Of a stretch of DNA of 64,000 nucleotides, positions 11,085-18,067 are shown piece after piece. The translations under genes and the position numbers were made by a program. The DNA is from Paraglaciecola hydrolytica (lineage in GTDB: Bacteria; Pseudomonadota; Gammaproteobacteria; Enterobacterales; Alteromonadaceae). The stretch is from contig NZ_LSNE01000009.1 of NCBI RefSeq assembly GCF_001565895.1, positions 270,551-334,550 on the forward strand, written 5' to 3'. The first letter of the stretch is position 1. Each line of letters opens with the position of its first letter. A model generated the notes under the pieces. The model did not search any database and was not told the DNA's origin. It saw only the letters and a program-made list of their open reading frames with translations.

Positions 11085-14038
<2,954 letters not shown>

Positions 14039-14039
14039 A

Positions 14040-14208
14040 GGCTGCTGCGCAGCCGCAAGGCTGCGGTACAGCATATTGCTGCGCAACACATGGCCTGCGG
14101 CCACTAAGACTATGCGCTGCGCGCGCTAAGGCATGCACTTCGTGCACAAAGTATTCGCTGCGCGAACTGTATGGCCTGCGGCCATCAAGATTATGTGCTA
14201 CGCACACT
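14040..14208 (+). repeat. Array of short trinucleotide-loop hairpins (array A)
   Basis: At least nine imperfect palindromes lie head to tail. Most have 4-6 bp stems and a 3-nt loop, usually TGC. Examples: GGCTGC-TGC-GCAGCC (14040-14054), TGGCC-TGC-GGCCA (14091-14103), TGCAC-TTC-GTGCA (14134-14146), TTCGC-TGC-GCGAA (14154-14166), ATGGCC-TGC-GGCCAT (14171-14185), TGTGC-TAC-GCACA (14194-14206). From the fourth unit on, loop centres fall 18-22 bp apart. Stem sequences differ but remain complementary. The first two units can also refold through a GCAA tetraloop (14049-14064). No coding ORF is credible here. Confidence 0.85.
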
Positions 14209-14440
14209 GCCATCCATGGCGTTTTTCAAGCCTCGTCCCGAGGCCCGACTTACTTTTTACCAACAGCCGTAAAAAGTAAGCAAAAAGGGCCGCTCTCCGG
14301 CCAACTTACTATTCCAATTTAAGCCGCAACTTGTTATCAAACCGGTACGGAGAGCACGTCCGTGTGCTCACCTCACCTTACCCAGACATCCTGTCTGGTC
14401 ATTTGACAAGTTGTGCCTAAAATTGGGTAAGTTGGAGTCG
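14209..14440 (+). repeat. Multi-hairpin structured element, copy A
   Basis: Ordered parts: HP1 GCCAT-CC-ATGGC (14209-14220); GTTTTTCAA linker; HP2 GCCTCG-TCC-CGAGGC (14230-14244); HP3 with 12-bp arms at 14249-14260 and 14269-14280 around loop CAACAGCC; GCAAAAAGGGCCG linker; then a long-range stem. That stem pairs CCAACTTAC (14301-14309) with GTAAGTTGG (14427-14435) and CAACTTGT (14327-14334) with ACAAGTTG (14406-14413). It encloses further hairpins, including CCAGACA-TCC-TGTCTGG. The same plan with different bases recurs in copies B and C. Confidence 0.8.
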
Positions 14441-14452
14441 AGGATAAAGGCA

Positions 14453-14705
14453 TCGCTGCGCGACACAGCATGCGCTGCGCTTACGTCATCCATGACGATT
14501 TTTCAAACCACGTCCCGTGGCTCGACCGTACTTTTCTTCAACAGCTAAGAAAAGTAGGCAAAAGAAGCCGCCCCCACTAAACGTTCTATTCCTGATTAGC
14601 TTGAATTCCCTAAGCCGCTTTGATGTGTTCCCGACACAACAAAGCTAAACTGGCTTTCCCTGCCAGTTTACTCAGTGAATTCTGGCGCTACTCAGGGAAC
14701 GTTTA
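14453..14705 (+). repeat. Multi-hairpin structured element, copy B with short leader array
   Basis: Leader hairpin TCGC-TGC-GCGA (14453-14463), then HP1 CGTCAT-CC-ATGACG (14484-14497), GATTTTTCAAA linker, HP2 CCACG-TCC-CGTGG (14508-14520), HP3 TACTTTTCTT / AAGAAAAGTA (14529-14538, 14547-14556) with loop CAACAGCT, GCAAAAGAAGCCG linker, and a long-range stem. The long-range stem joins TAAACGTTC near 14579 to GAACGTTTA ending at 14705 and GAATTC near 14604 to GAATTC near 14677. It encloses AAACTGGC / GCCAGTTT and GCTTTG / CAAAGC hairpins. Confidence 0.8.
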
Positions 14706-14921
14706 TACGGGGAACAAAAGCGCAATTTCTTCGATATCATTCCGCGTTTTAGCACATAAACAGATTCTGGTTAAATACAAAAAATGGCGTTAAAAATTAC
14801 CGCTTCTATTTTGTTTGAGAGTAGGTATATTAAGTTAATTAAATTTTGAATCGTGAAAAATCCAATTCATGTTAAATCCGGATTTAACATGAATTCCGAC
14901 TAATTAACCAAGGAAATGTTA
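14706..14921. other. Upstream part of cassette 1 and unassigned sequence
   Basis: Between structured element B and the lipoprotein gene. A GCGTTA at 14787-14792 could be the left recombination point of the first cassette, but I find no pairing left half of an attC site upstream, so that boundary is uncertain. The 32-bp palindrome at 14864-14895 lies here. Confidence 0.4.
14864..14895. repeat. Perfect 32-bp palindrome upstream of lipoprotein gene
   Basis: Two 16-nt arms with no spacer, centred between 14879 and 14880 on TCC|GGA; checked base by base. It ends 27 bp before the ATG at 14922. It could be an operator, a cruciform-forming site or an RNA hairpin in the leader. No T-run follows, so it is not a terminator. 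Confidence 0.9.
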
Positions 14922-15269
14922 ATGAAGTTTGTCATATTGTTAAGCGTTACTGTTTTACTTTTTGGTTGTGGATCACTAGACAAGAAAGCACTGCTTGTTA
15001 ATTCTGGAGATACCAAAGAGCAAGTTACTGCTGTTATGGGTGCACCTGATGACCGTCAATTTAAAGGTGATAATGAAGCATGGCAATACTGTCAGACAGG
15101 CGCTGGCTTCGGGTATCATGATTATCGAGTTATATGGTTTTACAAAGGGCAGGTTTCAGGAATTAATTCTTATAAAAGCTCTCGTCCAGCATCATCATGT
15201 GTAACAGATATTAAGCAAATAAATTGGGAAGATGCTCCTGATATGTCTTTAGAAATACGTAATAGGTAA
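14922..15269 (+). CDS. Small lipoprotein with BamE/SmpA-like domain (integron cassette gene)
   Basis: 115-residue lipoprotein: signal MKFVILLSVTVLLFG before Cys17 (lipobox LFGC). The mature region has the SmpA/OmlA/BamE-type pattern of a GDTKEQVTAVMGAPD turn followed by EAWQYC, a fold found in many small outer-membrane lipoproteins. AAGGAA at 14910-14915 gives 6 nt to ATG 14922, so this start is preferred over ATG 14916. The stop codon lies 2 bp before an attC-like site (15272-15366), as usual in mobile integron cassettes. It is probably not the housekeeping BamE; its role is unknown. Confidence 0.8.
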   Translation: MKFVILLSVTVLLFGCGSLDKKALLVNSGDTKEQVTAVMGAPDDRQFKGDNEAWQYCQTGAGFGYHDYRVIWFYKGQVSGINSYKSSRPASSCVTDIKQINWEDAPDMSLEIRNR

Positions 15270-15271
15270 CT

Positions 15272-15366
15272 TAACAAGTTGCTACATATCGTTCGTAAAC
15301 TCATTGGGAAAATAACTGCTGGCCGTTCCGGCCAAAGCGCAGTATTTTCCCATTAGAAAAGCGTTA
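15272..15366 (+). repeat. attC-like integron recombination site 1
   Basis: Starts TAACAAG (15272-15278) and ends GCGTTA (15361-15366). The inner boxes TTGCTACAT and ATTAGAA are partly complementary with unpaired bases, as in the L boxes of attC. The centre folds into a long imperfect stem (TTGGGAAAATA... / ...TATTTTCCCA) closed by GGCCG-TTC-CGGCC. The likely recombination point is between 15363 and 15364. Confidence 0.75.
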
Positions 15367-15384
15367 CATTTATAGGAGAGCAAT

Positions 15385-15852
15385 GTGCCCAACCACCCAT
15401 CACTAAATGATGTACTTGAAGGAAGATGCAACGTTGAGTGGATAGCGCTTTCTGCAGAAAAGTTGGTCATCCGCGATTGGGCTGATTCCGAAAACTCAAA
15501 AGGCGATATTTGCAACATGGAGTTGTCAATATTATGTGGGCCATGCTCCTCAGAGTATGAGATTTACAATTTCGGCAGTGTGTCATTGAATATCTATTCC
15601 GTTGAAGAAGAACAGATACAGAACCTTGAAGGTGATTCCCCATTGGGAAGCATCAACTTCTATGAGGAGGCCTGCCCAACAATCAATGTGAAGCTCTCTA
15701 AGAAGCTAGTGGCACACCTGCTACCCTTCATCGCGAACGATCTGTCGGGTCTTCGAGTGCGCATTTCAATCCCAGACTGGGAGGACAAGCTTGCTAAGTT
15801 TCTTCCATTAATGAGCTACCAAGTGTTTTATGAAAAAGATCAAAAAATGTAA
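15385..15852 (+). CDS. Hypothetical protein in an integron gene cassette
   Basis: 155-residue soluble acidic protein with no signal peptide or membrane segment and no family I recognise. Visible features are several Cys (RCNVEW, DICNMELSILCGPC) and a C-terminal SIPDWEDKLAKFLPLM. Start GTG 15385 follows AGGAG (15374-15378) at 6 nt. Codon use is richer in G/C-ending codons than neighbouring genes (for example the tract around 15700-15770), a sign of separate origin. The stop codon overlaps the first base box TAAC of attC site 2, and the gene fills the cassette 15364-15918 in the usual orientation. Cassette proteins often have adaptive or unknown roles. Confidence 0.75.
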   Translation: MPNHPSLNDVLEGRCNVEWIALSAEKLVIRDWADSENSKGDICNMELSILCGPCSSEYEIYNFGSVSLNIYSVEEEQIQNLEGDSPLGSINFYEEACPTINVKLSKKLVAHLLPFIANDLSGLRVRISIPDWEDKLAKFLPLMSYQVFYEKDQKM

Positions 15853-15921
15853 CAAGGCCATTAAATTCGCTCCCTGCGGTCGCCCGACGTTCGCAAGCTC
15901 GCGTGGTTTATGGTGGCGTTA
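15850..15921 (+). repeat. attC-like integron recombination site 2
   Basis: TAACAAG (15850-15856) pairs with GGCGTTA (15915-15921). CCATTAAA (15858-15865) pairs with TTTATGG (15907-15913) with one extra unpaired T, the extrahelical base expected of attC sites. The middle about 40 nt is GC-rich and can fold. The likely recombination point is between 15918 and 15919. Confidence 0.8.
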
Positions 15922-15951
15922 ATTCGAAGAACGGTTTCTTTGCTTGCGACT

Positions 15952-16183
15952 CCGACTTTCCCGATAGAAGTTTCGGCTTGTCAAATGTCCAAACAGGACG
16001 TTTGGACAAGGCGAGGCTTACAGGGAGGTTACATCTCGCCGTTTTGACATAAAAGCCGGGACTTATAGCGGATGAGAAAGTCGGTTAGAGCCGGCTTCTT
16101 TCTGGTTACTCTATTCTTAGCTGTTGAAGAAAGAGTAACTGGCTCTCACGGATGTGAGACATAAACCAGCATGGATGCTGGTA
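15952..16183 (-). repeat. Multi-hairpin structured element, copy C (reverse orientation)
   Basis: Read on the minus strand: HP1 ACCAGCAT-CC-ATGCTGGT (16182-16165), HP2 TCTCAC-ATCC-GTGAGA (16159-16144), HP3 with arms at 16139-16127 and 16118-16105 around CAACAGCT, then AGAAGCCGG, then a long-range stem. The long-range stem joins CCGACTTTC (16084-16076) to GAAAGTCGG (15960-15952) and AAGTCCCGGCTT to AAGCCGAAACTT. It shares CATTTGACAAG and GGAGTCG with copy A although the stems are different. Confidence 0.8.
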
Positions 16184-16184
16184 A

Positions 16185-16329
16185 GCGTAGCGCATGATCT
16201 TAGTCGCGTAGCGATAAATAAGCGAAGCGCATGCTTTGTGCGCGCAGCGCATGCTTTGTCGCGTAGCGATGCTTTGTCGCGTAGCGATGCTTTGTAAGTG
16301 AAACGCATGCTGTGTCGCGTAGCGATGAA
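16185..16329 (-). repeat. Array of short trinucleotide-loop hairpins (array C)
   Basis: Several TCGC-GTA-GCGA units (16204-16214, 16259-16269, 16277-16287, 16315-16325) and TGCGC-GCA-GCGCA (16239-16251) are separated by the 7-nt spacer TGCTTTG, giving a period of 18-20 bp. On the minus strand this array precedes element copy C just as array A precedes copy A on the plus strand. Confidence 0.8.
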
Positions 16330-16345
16330 ACCAGCTTTTGCTTCT

Positions 16346-16376
16346 ACAAAAAAGCCAGCTAAGTCGCTGGCTTTTG
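16346..16376 (-). terminator. Rho-independent terminator of asnB
   Basis: Stem AAAGCCAGC / GCTGGCTTT (16351-16359, 16366-16374). The minus-strand transcript ends in a T-run derived from the A-run at 16348-16353. It lies 20 bp past the asnB stop. Confidence 0.85.
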
Positions 16377-16393
16377 TTTGTTCATTTGTAAAC

Positions 16394-18067
16394 TTATTTA
16401 TTCGCTTGTAAATGAACGTTGCGCATAGCGCGTCCTGAAGGGTCAGCATTGCCTTTAAAACTCGCATCCCACTCTAAGGCTTCTACCGTACTACAAGCGA
16501 TAGACTTGCCACTAGGCACGCATTTAGCGGCTGTTTCTTGTGGGAAGTAGCCTTCAAAGATGGTGCGGTAGTAATAACCTTCTTTGGTATCCGGCGTATT
16601 AATCGGGAAACGGAAGGCTGCTGAGGCCATTTGCTGATCAGTCACTTGTGTTTCCACATATTCTTTTAACGAATCAATCCACGAATAACCTACGCCATCG
16701 CTGAATTGTTCTTTTTGACGCCATAAAATTTCGGCTGGCAAATATTCGTTATTATCAAAGGCTTTGCGTAATACCCATTTTTCCATTTTGCCATCAAGAC
16801 ACATTTTGTCTTGTGGGTTTAAACGCATGGCCACGTCCATAAATTCTTTATCTAAGAAAGGTACACGACCTTCTACACCCCAAGCTGAAGTGGATTTATT
16901 GGCGCGGGCACAGTCAAACATGTGCAAACGTTTAAGTTTACGGATGGTTTCTTCATGGAATTCTTTAGCGTTTGGTGCTTTATGGAAATACAGGTAACCA
17001 CCAAATATTTCGTCTGCACCTTCACCCGACAATACCATCTTAATACCCATGGCTTTGATTTTACGACTCATCAAATACATAGGGGTAGAGGCGCGGATGG
17101 TGGTCGTATCGTAGGTTTCAATGTGGTAAATCACGTCACGTAAGGCGTCTAAACCTTCTTGTACGGTAAAGTGAACTTCGTGATGCACGGTGCCAATCAT
17201 TTTAGCCACTTTTTGTGCCGCGATTAAATCAGGTGCGCCTTCAAGGCCAACAGCAAAAGAGTGCAAACGAGGCCACCAAGCATCGGTTTTATCGCCATCT
17301 TCTACGCGCTTAGCGACGTACTTGGCAGCAACTGCTGATACTAATGAAGAATCTAAACCACCTGACAGTAATACACCGTAAGGCACATCTGACATCAGAT
17401 GAGACTTAACTGCTTTTTCGAAAGCCACTTTTAAGTCTTCTAAATTAGTTGGGTTGTTTTTTACGTTTTCGTAATCCATCCAGTCACGTTTGTAGTATTC
17501 GGTTAACTTACCGTTTTTACTCCACAAGTAATGCCCTGGAGGGAATTCTTGAATGGTTTTACAAACAGGCGCTAAGGCTTTCATTTCTGAGGCAACATAT
17601 AAATTGCCGTGTTCGTCATAACCGGTATACAAAGGGATAATACCCATGTGGTCACGGGCAATCAGGTAGGCATCTTGTTCTTCGTCATATAAGACAAAAG
17701 CAAACATACCTTCAAGTTCATCAATAAAATCAAGGCCTTTTTGTTGATACAAAGGTAGGATGATTTCACAGTCAGACTTGGTTCTGAAGTCGTAAGGGGT
17801 GGCCAAATTTTTCTCAAGAGTCTTGTGGTTATAGATTTCGCCATTAACGGCTAACACTTGATTATTATTTCGGCTGATTAAAGGTTGAGCGCCGGTGTCA
17901 ACGTCGACTATCGCCAAACGTTCATGACACAAGATGGCATTATTATTATTCCAGATACCTGACCAATCAGGGCCGCGATGACGCAGCAATTTGGAAAGCT
18001 CTAACGCTTGTGTTCTAAGTTCTGCCACATCAGTTTTGATGCCCAGAATGCCGAAAATACCACACAT
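16394..18067 (-). CDS. asnB: Asparagine synthetase (glutamine-hydrolysing)
   Basis: 557-residue AsnB, close to the E. coli length of 554. The N-terminal glutaminase begins MCGIFGILG with the catalytic Cys2. The synthetase half carries the pyrophosphate loop GVLLSGGLDSSLV and later SGEGADEIFGGYLYF and WGVEGRVPFLDKEF. It makes asparagine from aspartate, glutamine and ATP in the cytosol. The start must be ATG 18067 because Cys2 has to be exposed; the open frame extends further upstream without meaning. A TATACT box at 18258-18263 (minus) could be the -10, giving a leader of about 180 nt that contains a GAACC / GGTTC hairpin. Confidence 0.97.
   Translation of the reverse strand: MCGIFGILGIKTDVAELRTQALELSKLLRHRGPDWSGIWNNNNAILCHERLAIVDVDTGAQPLISRNNNQVLAVNGEIYNHKTLEKNLATPYDFRTKSDCEIILPLYQQKGLDFIDELEGMFAFVLYDEEQDAYLIARDHMGIIPLYTGYDEHGNLYVASEMKALAPVCKTIQEFPPGHYLWSKNGKLTEYYKRDWMDYENVKNNPTNLEDLKVAFEKAVKSHLMSDVPYGVLLSGGLDSSLVSAVAAKYVAKRVEDGDKTDAWWPRLHSFAVGLEGAPDLIAAQKVAKMIGTVHHEVHFTVQEGLDALRDVIYHIETYDTTTIRASTPMYLMSRKIKAMGIKMVLSGEGADEIFGGYLYFHKAPNAKEFHEETIRKLKRLHMFDCARANKSTSAWGVEGRVPFLDKEFMDVAMRLNPQDKMCLDGKMEKWVLRKAFDNNEYLPAEILWRQKEQFSDGVGYSWIDSLKEYVETQVTDQQMASAAFRFPINTPDTKEGYYYRTIFEGYFPQETAAKCVPSGKSIACSTVEALEWDASFKGNADPSGRAMRNVHLQANK

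Follow-up and report, generated by a model that had tools for sequence, protein, structure and literature searches.

Two neighbouring hairpin-rich segments in the genome of Paraglaciecola hydrolytica raise the question of what kind of element is encoded there, and in which nucleic acid it folds. The segments lie in a stretch of 64,000 nucleotides (hereafter the window; contig NZ_LSNE01000009.1, positions 270,551 to 334,550 of the forward strand), whose own numbering is used below. An earlier note on this DNA had described them as two copies, A and B, of a structure of about 230 nt that is preserved by compensatory change and formed by RNA or single-stranded DNA. Our analysis identifies the element as an extended form of the Rfam family TwoAYGGAY, in which GGA occurs in as many as four hairpin loops, in a bulge and in a linker. 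On balance, we favour the reading that A and B are copies of a dispersed, multi-copy RNA that binds CsrA, probably as a sponge or as part of a 3'-UTR, and that the copies also mark places where cargo is exchanged.

Three copies share one ordered plan

Read on the plus strand, copy A consists of HP1, a TTTTTCAA linker, HP2, HP3 (loop CAACAGC), a CAAAA linker and a long stem, which carries a CTATTCC bulge and encloses two hairpins (HP4 and HP5). This ordered plan, which the earlier note had ascribed to A and B alike, is found in both, with B repeating it at 14486-14711. The third copy, C, which is inverted relative to A and B, is an addition to the earlier two-copy observation. The stem bases of B and of other copies are unrelated to those of A, and the plan is the same. 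The copies, the parts of A and the adjoining arrays are given here, where A1 is the alignment of 28 copies and R1 the covariance model described in the next section.

14210..14442, minus (RNA strand): copy A, whole element; R1 214.6 bits, with A in the training set
14298-14442, minus: core of copy A; RF01731, 56.1 bits
14486..14711, minus: copy B, same plan with another stem sequence; R1 107.6 bits, E 8e-30, outside the training set
15945..16178, plus: copy C, the inverted partner; R1 192.2 bits, in the training set
14209..14220, minus: HP1 of A, RNA loop AUGGAU (AYGGAY); GGA in 25 of 28 A1 rows, two of the three rows without it being cut short
14230..14244, minus: HP2 of A, RNA loop with GGGA; GGA in 28 of 28 A1 rows
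14249..14280, minus: HP3 of A, RNA-strand loop GCUGUUG, in which GGA is absent; covariation helix 6; GGA at the edge of the loop columns in 8 of 28 A1 rows
14294..14298, minus: linker GGAGA adjoining the long stem; GGA in 27 of 28 A1 rows
14309..14315, minus: GGAAUAG bulge in the long stem of A; GGA in 14 of 14 own-genome rows and 6 of 14 relatives' rows (20 of 28 overall)
14352..14369, minus: HP4 of A, RNA loop ACGGAC (an AYGGAY loop), from the minimum free energy (MFE) fold; GGA in 28 of 28 A1 rows, its column not being fixed (9 of 28 rows share one column)
14382..14398, minus: HP5 of A, RNA loop with AGGAU, from the MFE fold; GGA in 26 of 28 A1 rows
14040..14208, no strand assigned: mini-hairpin array outside A; direct repeats D3 and D5, and reading
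14443..14484, no strand assigned: mini-hairpin array in the gap between A and B; reading, and repeats I2 and I3
16179..16340, no strand assigned: mini-hairpin array outside C, inverted relative to the arrays on the left; repeats D1, D2, I2 and I3

We note that the arrays at 14040-14208 and 16179-16340 consist of short palindromes of the form NNNC-TNC-GNNN, whose stems vary and which are inverted on the two sides. Similar short-palindrome arrays adjoin many other copies of the element.

Compensatory changes preserve the fold and identify its strand

We gathered 43 non-redundant copies from the own genome and its relatives, 35 of the A stem type and 8 of the B type. The alignment A1 comprises 28 of the 35 A-type copies (14 from the own genome and 14 from relatives of the same genus), the other seven having been dropped for nested inserts, truncation or chimeric ends. 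As such, it includes A and C and excludes B and all eight B-type copies. RNAalifold on A1 yields 62 pairs, 40 of which show at least one double change, and double-change pairs are present in each of the seven helices, ranging in the 3'-side hairpins from 8 of 8 pairs in HP2 (helix 7) to 7 of 13 in HP3 (helix 6).

Standard pairs fill 95.8% of the 1704 pair cells of A1, compared to 76.8 +/- 0.7% when partners are shuffled and only 36-48% when they are slid by 1-3 columns. Changes on both sides of a pair occur in 326 cells against 99 +/- 8 in shuffles; since the rows of A1 are related copies, these counts refer to cells rather than to independent events. The covariation score is 0.523 versus 0.176 shuffled. 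HP1 stands outside the pair count because the A1 rows end within it; by reading, its stem also varies in concert across copies. In addition, the covariance model R1, built from A1 with B left out, recovers B at the score listed above. These results bear out the earlier proposal that the stems change bases yet stay paired, and they strongly support a conserved fold, about 230 nt long, that compensatory change maintains.

The earlier note had left the nature of the folded molecule open. To treat both strands alike, we picked pairs by Watson-Crick rules only and then compared G-U with A-C cells. For the minus strand of copies A and B, there are 51 G-U against 11 A-C cells (20 versus 5 in columns, p 0.004), and a second alignment of the same 28 copies gives 56 versus 15. 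The consensus energy with G-U allowed is -67.9 on this strand and -39.2 on the opposite one. Folding is thus assigned to the minus strand in A and B, and to the plus strand in the inverted copy C. This strand bias, together with the CsrA-like loops described below, favours RNA over single-stranded DNA, the less likely option, which we weigh with the genomic setting.

Copy A belongs to TwoAYGGAY and the element extends that family

An Rfam search assigns the core of A to TwoAYGGAY (RF01731) at the 56.1 bits listed above, where the gathering cut-off is 43. Copy C scores 34.5 bits, below this cut-off, and copy B has no Rfam match even at E up to 1; the extended model R1 unites all three. The RF01731 alignments are full-length (1-168) for A and C. 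The long stem enclosing two GGA hairpins is present on the same strand in these alignments and in the consensus and MFE folds. Within the enclosed loops, A carries ACGGAC in HP4 and AGGAU in HP5, and several relatives carry AUGGAC or AUGGAU in both.

The earlier note had counted against its own proposal the case in which a covariance model would hit only a known Rfam family or show no covariation beyond phylogeny. One side of this has come true, in that copy A matches a known family above the cut-off. The other has not, given that B has no Rfam hit, C stays under the cut-off, the Rfam model is without HP1-HP3, and covariation goes beyond the controls. Compared to TwoAYGGAY as modelled in Rfam, the element is longer, with three extra hairpins (HP3, HP2 and HP1) on the RNA 3' side, two of which (HP2 and HP1) have GGA loops. 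It also includes stem types and high-GC relatives that fall below the Rfam cut-off, and it is a dispersed repeat that, in the own genome, often forms outward pairs around accessory genes.

TwoAYGGAY has been a structured RNA of unknown function since 2010, and we found one proposal for it. The table of the 2010 discovery paper lists it as probably RNA and not cis-regulatory (PMC2864571), while Rfam types it as Cis-reg and places it in clan CL00106, a label shared by CsrB of E. coli K-12. A 2014 paper proposes it, in the passage that treats it, as a CsrA-binding RNA with validation pending (PMC4333381). The Rfam 15 paper, where it mentions the family, reports that R-scape adds two covarying pairs (PMC11701678). 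In the literature searched, mostly titles and the first lines of abstracts, we came across no account of TwoAYGGAY being a dispersed repeat. Our analysis adds the strand, the full extent, two further conserved GGA hairpins, the copy number, the reach and the genomic setting, which together make the CsrA-binding proposal directly testable.

The element is a dispersed repeat with a wide reach

A BLAST search of the own genome with the 497-base query gives 50 matches, among them the query and many fragments; the element is therefore a dispersed repeat here. In the window and 20 further own-genome regions, R1 finds 35 matches at E up to 0.1. RF01731 finds 17 matches in the own genome at E up to 1, of which 11 are above the cut-off. 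Among the 40 genomes searched as relatives (own included), 17 have a match to RF01731 at E <= 0.01, above the cut-off in 12.

R1 at E <= 1e-4 matches at least 17 of 369 genomes of the class, the own included. This is a lower bound, as the scan used stricter filters and scored no more than five candidates per genome; one genome (G022) has an RF01731 match of 45.7 bits, yet none in this filtered scan. The matched genomes include copies of 61-67% GC (L182, L199, L184, L185 and L200), and the three of these five loci that were covered by a search with RF01731 (L182, L184 and L200) have no match at the cut-off. Distant genomes of the class share the plan, and the bases that build it are quite different there.

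GGA loops in an ANGGAN context recur across the copies

We next consider the loops in MFE folds. The 31 own-genome copies have 172 hairpin loops, of which 112 hold GGA. The corresponding figures are 67 of 132 loops for 23 copies from relatives, among them two regions of G033, a genome of the same taxonomic order, and 32 of 69 loops for 13 distant copies. The control pieces, taken elsewhere in the window, have GGA in 26 of 570 loops. These sets cover 31 of the 35 own R1 matches, 23 of the relatives' 26 and 13 of the 28 distant ones; fragments and weak matches were left out, and three G033 places were put with the relatives or omitted. Folds with at least four GGA loops number 20 of 31 in the own genome, 7 of 23 among the relatives and 1 of 13 among the distant copies. 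In the distant copies that were inspected, GGA is kept mainly in the two enclosed hairpins with differing bases, HP1 is not recognisable, and HP2 has GGA in some copies only.

When distinct loop contexts are counted, the position two bases upstream of GGA is A in 54 of 76 (own), 34 of 43 (relatives) and 12 of 21 (distant), against 7 of the 26 GGA loops of the control. A closed ANGGAN hexaloop is formed in 47 of 76, 33 of 43 and 11 of 21 contexts, respectively, and ACANGGANGU accounts for 15, 12 and 2 of the distinct contexts. Such a context is the one that CsrA/RsmE recognises: a review gives the selected CsrA consensus as RUACARGGAUGU and the RsmE loop as ANGGAN, and states in the same part that selected CsrA ligands mostly have four or fewer contiguous stem pairs (PMC7652899). 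The host genome has one CsrA match (PF02599, 88.8 bits).

As in CsrB/RsmB and other CsrA-sequestering small RNAs, several GGA hairpins with an ANGGAN context lie on one RNA, and the clan label is the same. CsrB is a single-locus small RNA. The element differs from it in its multibranched fold with a long closing stem and in its tens of copies, and R1 gives no match to the E. coli csrB region. We judge that the element most likely works like a CsrA-binding RNA, with a CsrB-type sponge role being putative. Several features count against the CsrA reading: CsrB occupies one locus and the element tens, several hairpins have long stems of six or more pairs, the HP5 loop has five bases (in 14 of 14 own A1 rows), and the distant copies have fewer GGA loops. 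A further point against it is that promoter-like sites are at the level of shuffles (3 versus 4.1).

Copies often lie past gene ends and form outward pairs around accessory genes

The cargo ORFs of the locus and the terminator of the flanking gene are as follows.

14916..15269, plus: cargo ORF 1, 117 aa; lipoprotein-like by reading, with a weak BamE match below the cut-off
15385..15852, plus: cargo ORF 2, 155 aa; no Pfam match
16350..16375, no strand assigned: terminator of the flanking asnB (by reading, a minus-strand gene); the terminator-like site is listed on plus

On a naive ORF map, 27 of 32 outer copies have their HP1 side towards the 3' end of the closest gene; this count includes fragments and disregards inner tandem copies as well as spurious ORFs that overlap the element. 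At asnB (named by reading), in both the own genome (G000) and G018, a hairpin with a T-run directly follows the gene end, and the array and the copy start directly past this terminator. Such an arrangement would be expected if the copies were transcription terminators or insulators that block read-through from both sides, and the region 14000-16420 does contain 12 terminator-like sites versus 2.7 in shuffles. Most of these sites, however, are the element's own hairpins, and a T-run after HP1 is absent in many copies, such as those with GGGTATGAC in its place. Moreover, asnB already has a terminator, and neither the GGA loops nor a multibranched fold of 230 nt would be needed for one. We therefore consider a terminator function quite improbable.

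The copies are also arranged relative to each other. Defining outward as RNA 5' ends facing each other, we tallied neighbours with gaps up to 5 kb in the window and the 20 own-genome regions, counting an IS110-split element once and two weak fragments as copies. In the own genome, 11 of 14 neighbour pairs are outward, two are tandem on minus, one is tandem on plus and none is facing (p 4e-5 against an expectation of one-quarter). The regions of relatives, which were partly picked for holding several matches, have 5 outward, 1 facing and 10 tandem pairs among 16, and this weaker outward pairing counts against the CsrA reading as well. The distant loci have 5 outward, 2 tandem and no facing pairs (L083 being counted with the relatives).

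Between the copies of most own outward pairs lie accessory genes. Specifically, 9 of the 11 pairs enclose one to four non-transposase ORFs of at least 80 aa (13 in total), one encloses a Y1 transposase only, and one encloses none. Pfam searches of 11 of the 13 ORFs give two matches above the cut-off (DUF2971 and PLDc_2) and weak or no matches for the rest; PADLOC, run on 3 of the 13, matches two to the candidate system PDC-S31. At one orthologous bracket in two species, the cargo itself differs: G007 has a Septu pair, PtuA/PtuB, with E 2.8e-140 and 1.1e-89, and the ATPase of G006 is unrelated, matches AriA best in PADLOC (E 1.8e-22) and is accompanied by a DDE transposase. The two edges align at 81-84% over the longer pieces. 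This cargo swap is seen at one locus. The bracket is located at L172 5566-7312 and L174 8780-10354, with Septu-like PtuA/PtuB versus an AriA/OLD-like ATPase.

Occupancy varies between genomes at single sites. By reading, pheA and a convergent tRNA-methyltransferase-like gene are about 130 bases apart in G005, with no element and no cargo, and 1.5 kb apart in G000; of six relatives at this site, G005 alone keeps the neighbour gene. At asnB, copies are present in one (G018) of 16 relatives with sequence past the gene and absent in 15, one of which (L142) has about 240 bases only, and a 17th locus (L141) ends at the gene. We also sought a precise empty site at asnB and pheA; insertion boundaries and target duplications could not be fixed there because divergence is too high.

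Taken with the CsrA-like loops, this setting suggests how the element may operate. The RNA would be transcribed outward from between paired copies, either as the 3'-UTR of a cargo gene or from a promoter of its own, and the folded RNA would bind CsrA/RsmA dimers through its GGA loops. Tens of copies could then titrate CsrA as a sponge, protect the transcripts that carry the element, or both. The copies would spread as repeats into sites just past gene ends, and recombination between paired copies, acting as homologous edges, would exchange the accessory and defence genes that they enclose. If CsrA binding holds, one genome would gain roughly a hundred CsrA sites from this dispersed repeat, and the strength of a global regulator would be set in an unusual manner. 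Accessory genes, defence genes included, may also be exchanged in this genus at the sites that the brackets mark. In any case, the dispersed and bracketing habit of the extended TwoAYGGAY element is unusual.

Transposases, integron features and nested modules near the element

If the element instead acted as single-stranded DNA, the GGA strand would fold when exposed and form the end of a mobile unit, such as a transposon end or a recombination site; each outward pair would delimit one such unit, with the enclosed genes as its cargo. A related possibility is that the copies are ordinary REP/BIME-like repeats, that is, substrates of a REP-associated transposase with no RNA function. One copy in L056 and the unsolved partner of TnpA-Y1 subclass 2.3 prompted us to consider a Y1 transposase in this role. 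This protein of about 329 aa resembles that subclass (WE and YVDLNP motifs, with NHTH where the published table gives NHYH) and is common in this genus, being found in 32 of the 40 genomes searched as relatives, other genera included. The published description of this subclass reports no REP and no flanking REP-like structures for it (PMC6006769).

Among 32 Y1 loci tested (three in the own genome), folded copies are present on both sides in one, a one-sided fragment is present in one more, and a further locus has a match below significance. The flanks covered up to 1.5 kb, some being ended by contig ends, and were searched with two stem-type profiles only. In addition, the Y1 unit carries its own terminal repeats, with GACACCCA in 6 of 6 loci inspected and, at the other end, TGGGTGTC in four and a one-base variant in two. 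Because only one of the 32 loci is flanked on both sides within the flanks searched and the unit has its own terminal repeats in the loci inspected, we rejected the Y1 transposase as the partner of the element.

The REP reading shares with our data the dispersed, hairpin-rich, extragenic repeats in many copies, as in REP/BIME with TnpA-REP (RAYT), and a widespread Y1 transposase of a subclass for which a REP is still missing. The element nevertheless differs from REP/BIME in having no consistent Y1 association and a much larger conserved fold, and its multibranched structure, GGA loop identity and occurrence in distant families exceed what REP hairpins display. This reading is already not supported, and we hold it to be very improbable.

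A role as single-stranded DNA fares better in our view and is still rather unlikely. It fits the dispersed copies, the inverted pairs around variable cargo, the pheA site that has neither element nor cargo in G005, and a module of about 48 nt that lies within hairpin loops in all of its exact own-genome matches. On the other hand, no transposase or recombinase was found to accompany the copies, as far as flanks of up to 1.5 kb and two stem-type profiles show for Y1, the Y1 unit has its own ends, and neither a target duplication nor a precise empty site is definable. Furthermore, the loops match an RNA-protein consensus, and the conserved G-U pairs suit RNA better. As such, we retain the CsrA-binding RNA as the preferred reading.

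The module of about 48 nt has six exact matches in the own genome, each of which lies inside a hairpin loop by reading: four in copies of the element (L158, L160, L161 and L162) and two in other hairpin modules (L159 and L163). It carries two hairpins with GGA loops on the complementary strand, so its insertion into a GGA loop would swap one GGA loop for two. No target duplication is seen at the module. We can thus envisage, as a bolder and unlikely variant of the preferred reading, a self-spreading CsrA-binding element that gains hairpins through modules in its own GGA loops and whose outward pairs form a portable bracket for accessory and defence genes. Under such a scheme, mobile cargo would be wired into the CsrA network of its host from the start.

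We also considered integron attC sites as an explanation. Some cargo ORFs in L054 and L061 adjoin attC-like folded sites, a likeness to integron cassettes. In the window, attC-like sites were seen by eye after both cargo ORFs, and these failed a scan whose permissive threshold admits many chance sites; the attC explanation is kept as a comment on the cargo only. The own genome has two integron integrases above the cut-off with attC-like arrays (L170 and L171; C5:581678 and C2:378678), and weaker partial integrase matches elsewhere.

Several further observations concern the loci around the element. Y1 transposases with the WE and YVDLNP motifs are located at L056 5161-6150 (minus) and in L079, L115, L117, L118 and L120. 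At L054 4164-5135, an IS110-family transposase ORF splits a copy of the element near HP3, and the folded element may therefore be an IS110 target. The two-hairpin module lies within GGA/TCC loops of other hairpins near position 1500 in L158-L163, and also in L144 and L146. Around 1440-1800, L159 and L163 contain more hairpin modules, of the type CACCCAGTC...AACTGGGC...TTTCACCC with TCC/GGA loops, and modules of this type are also found inside some copies of the element (L055 and L066).
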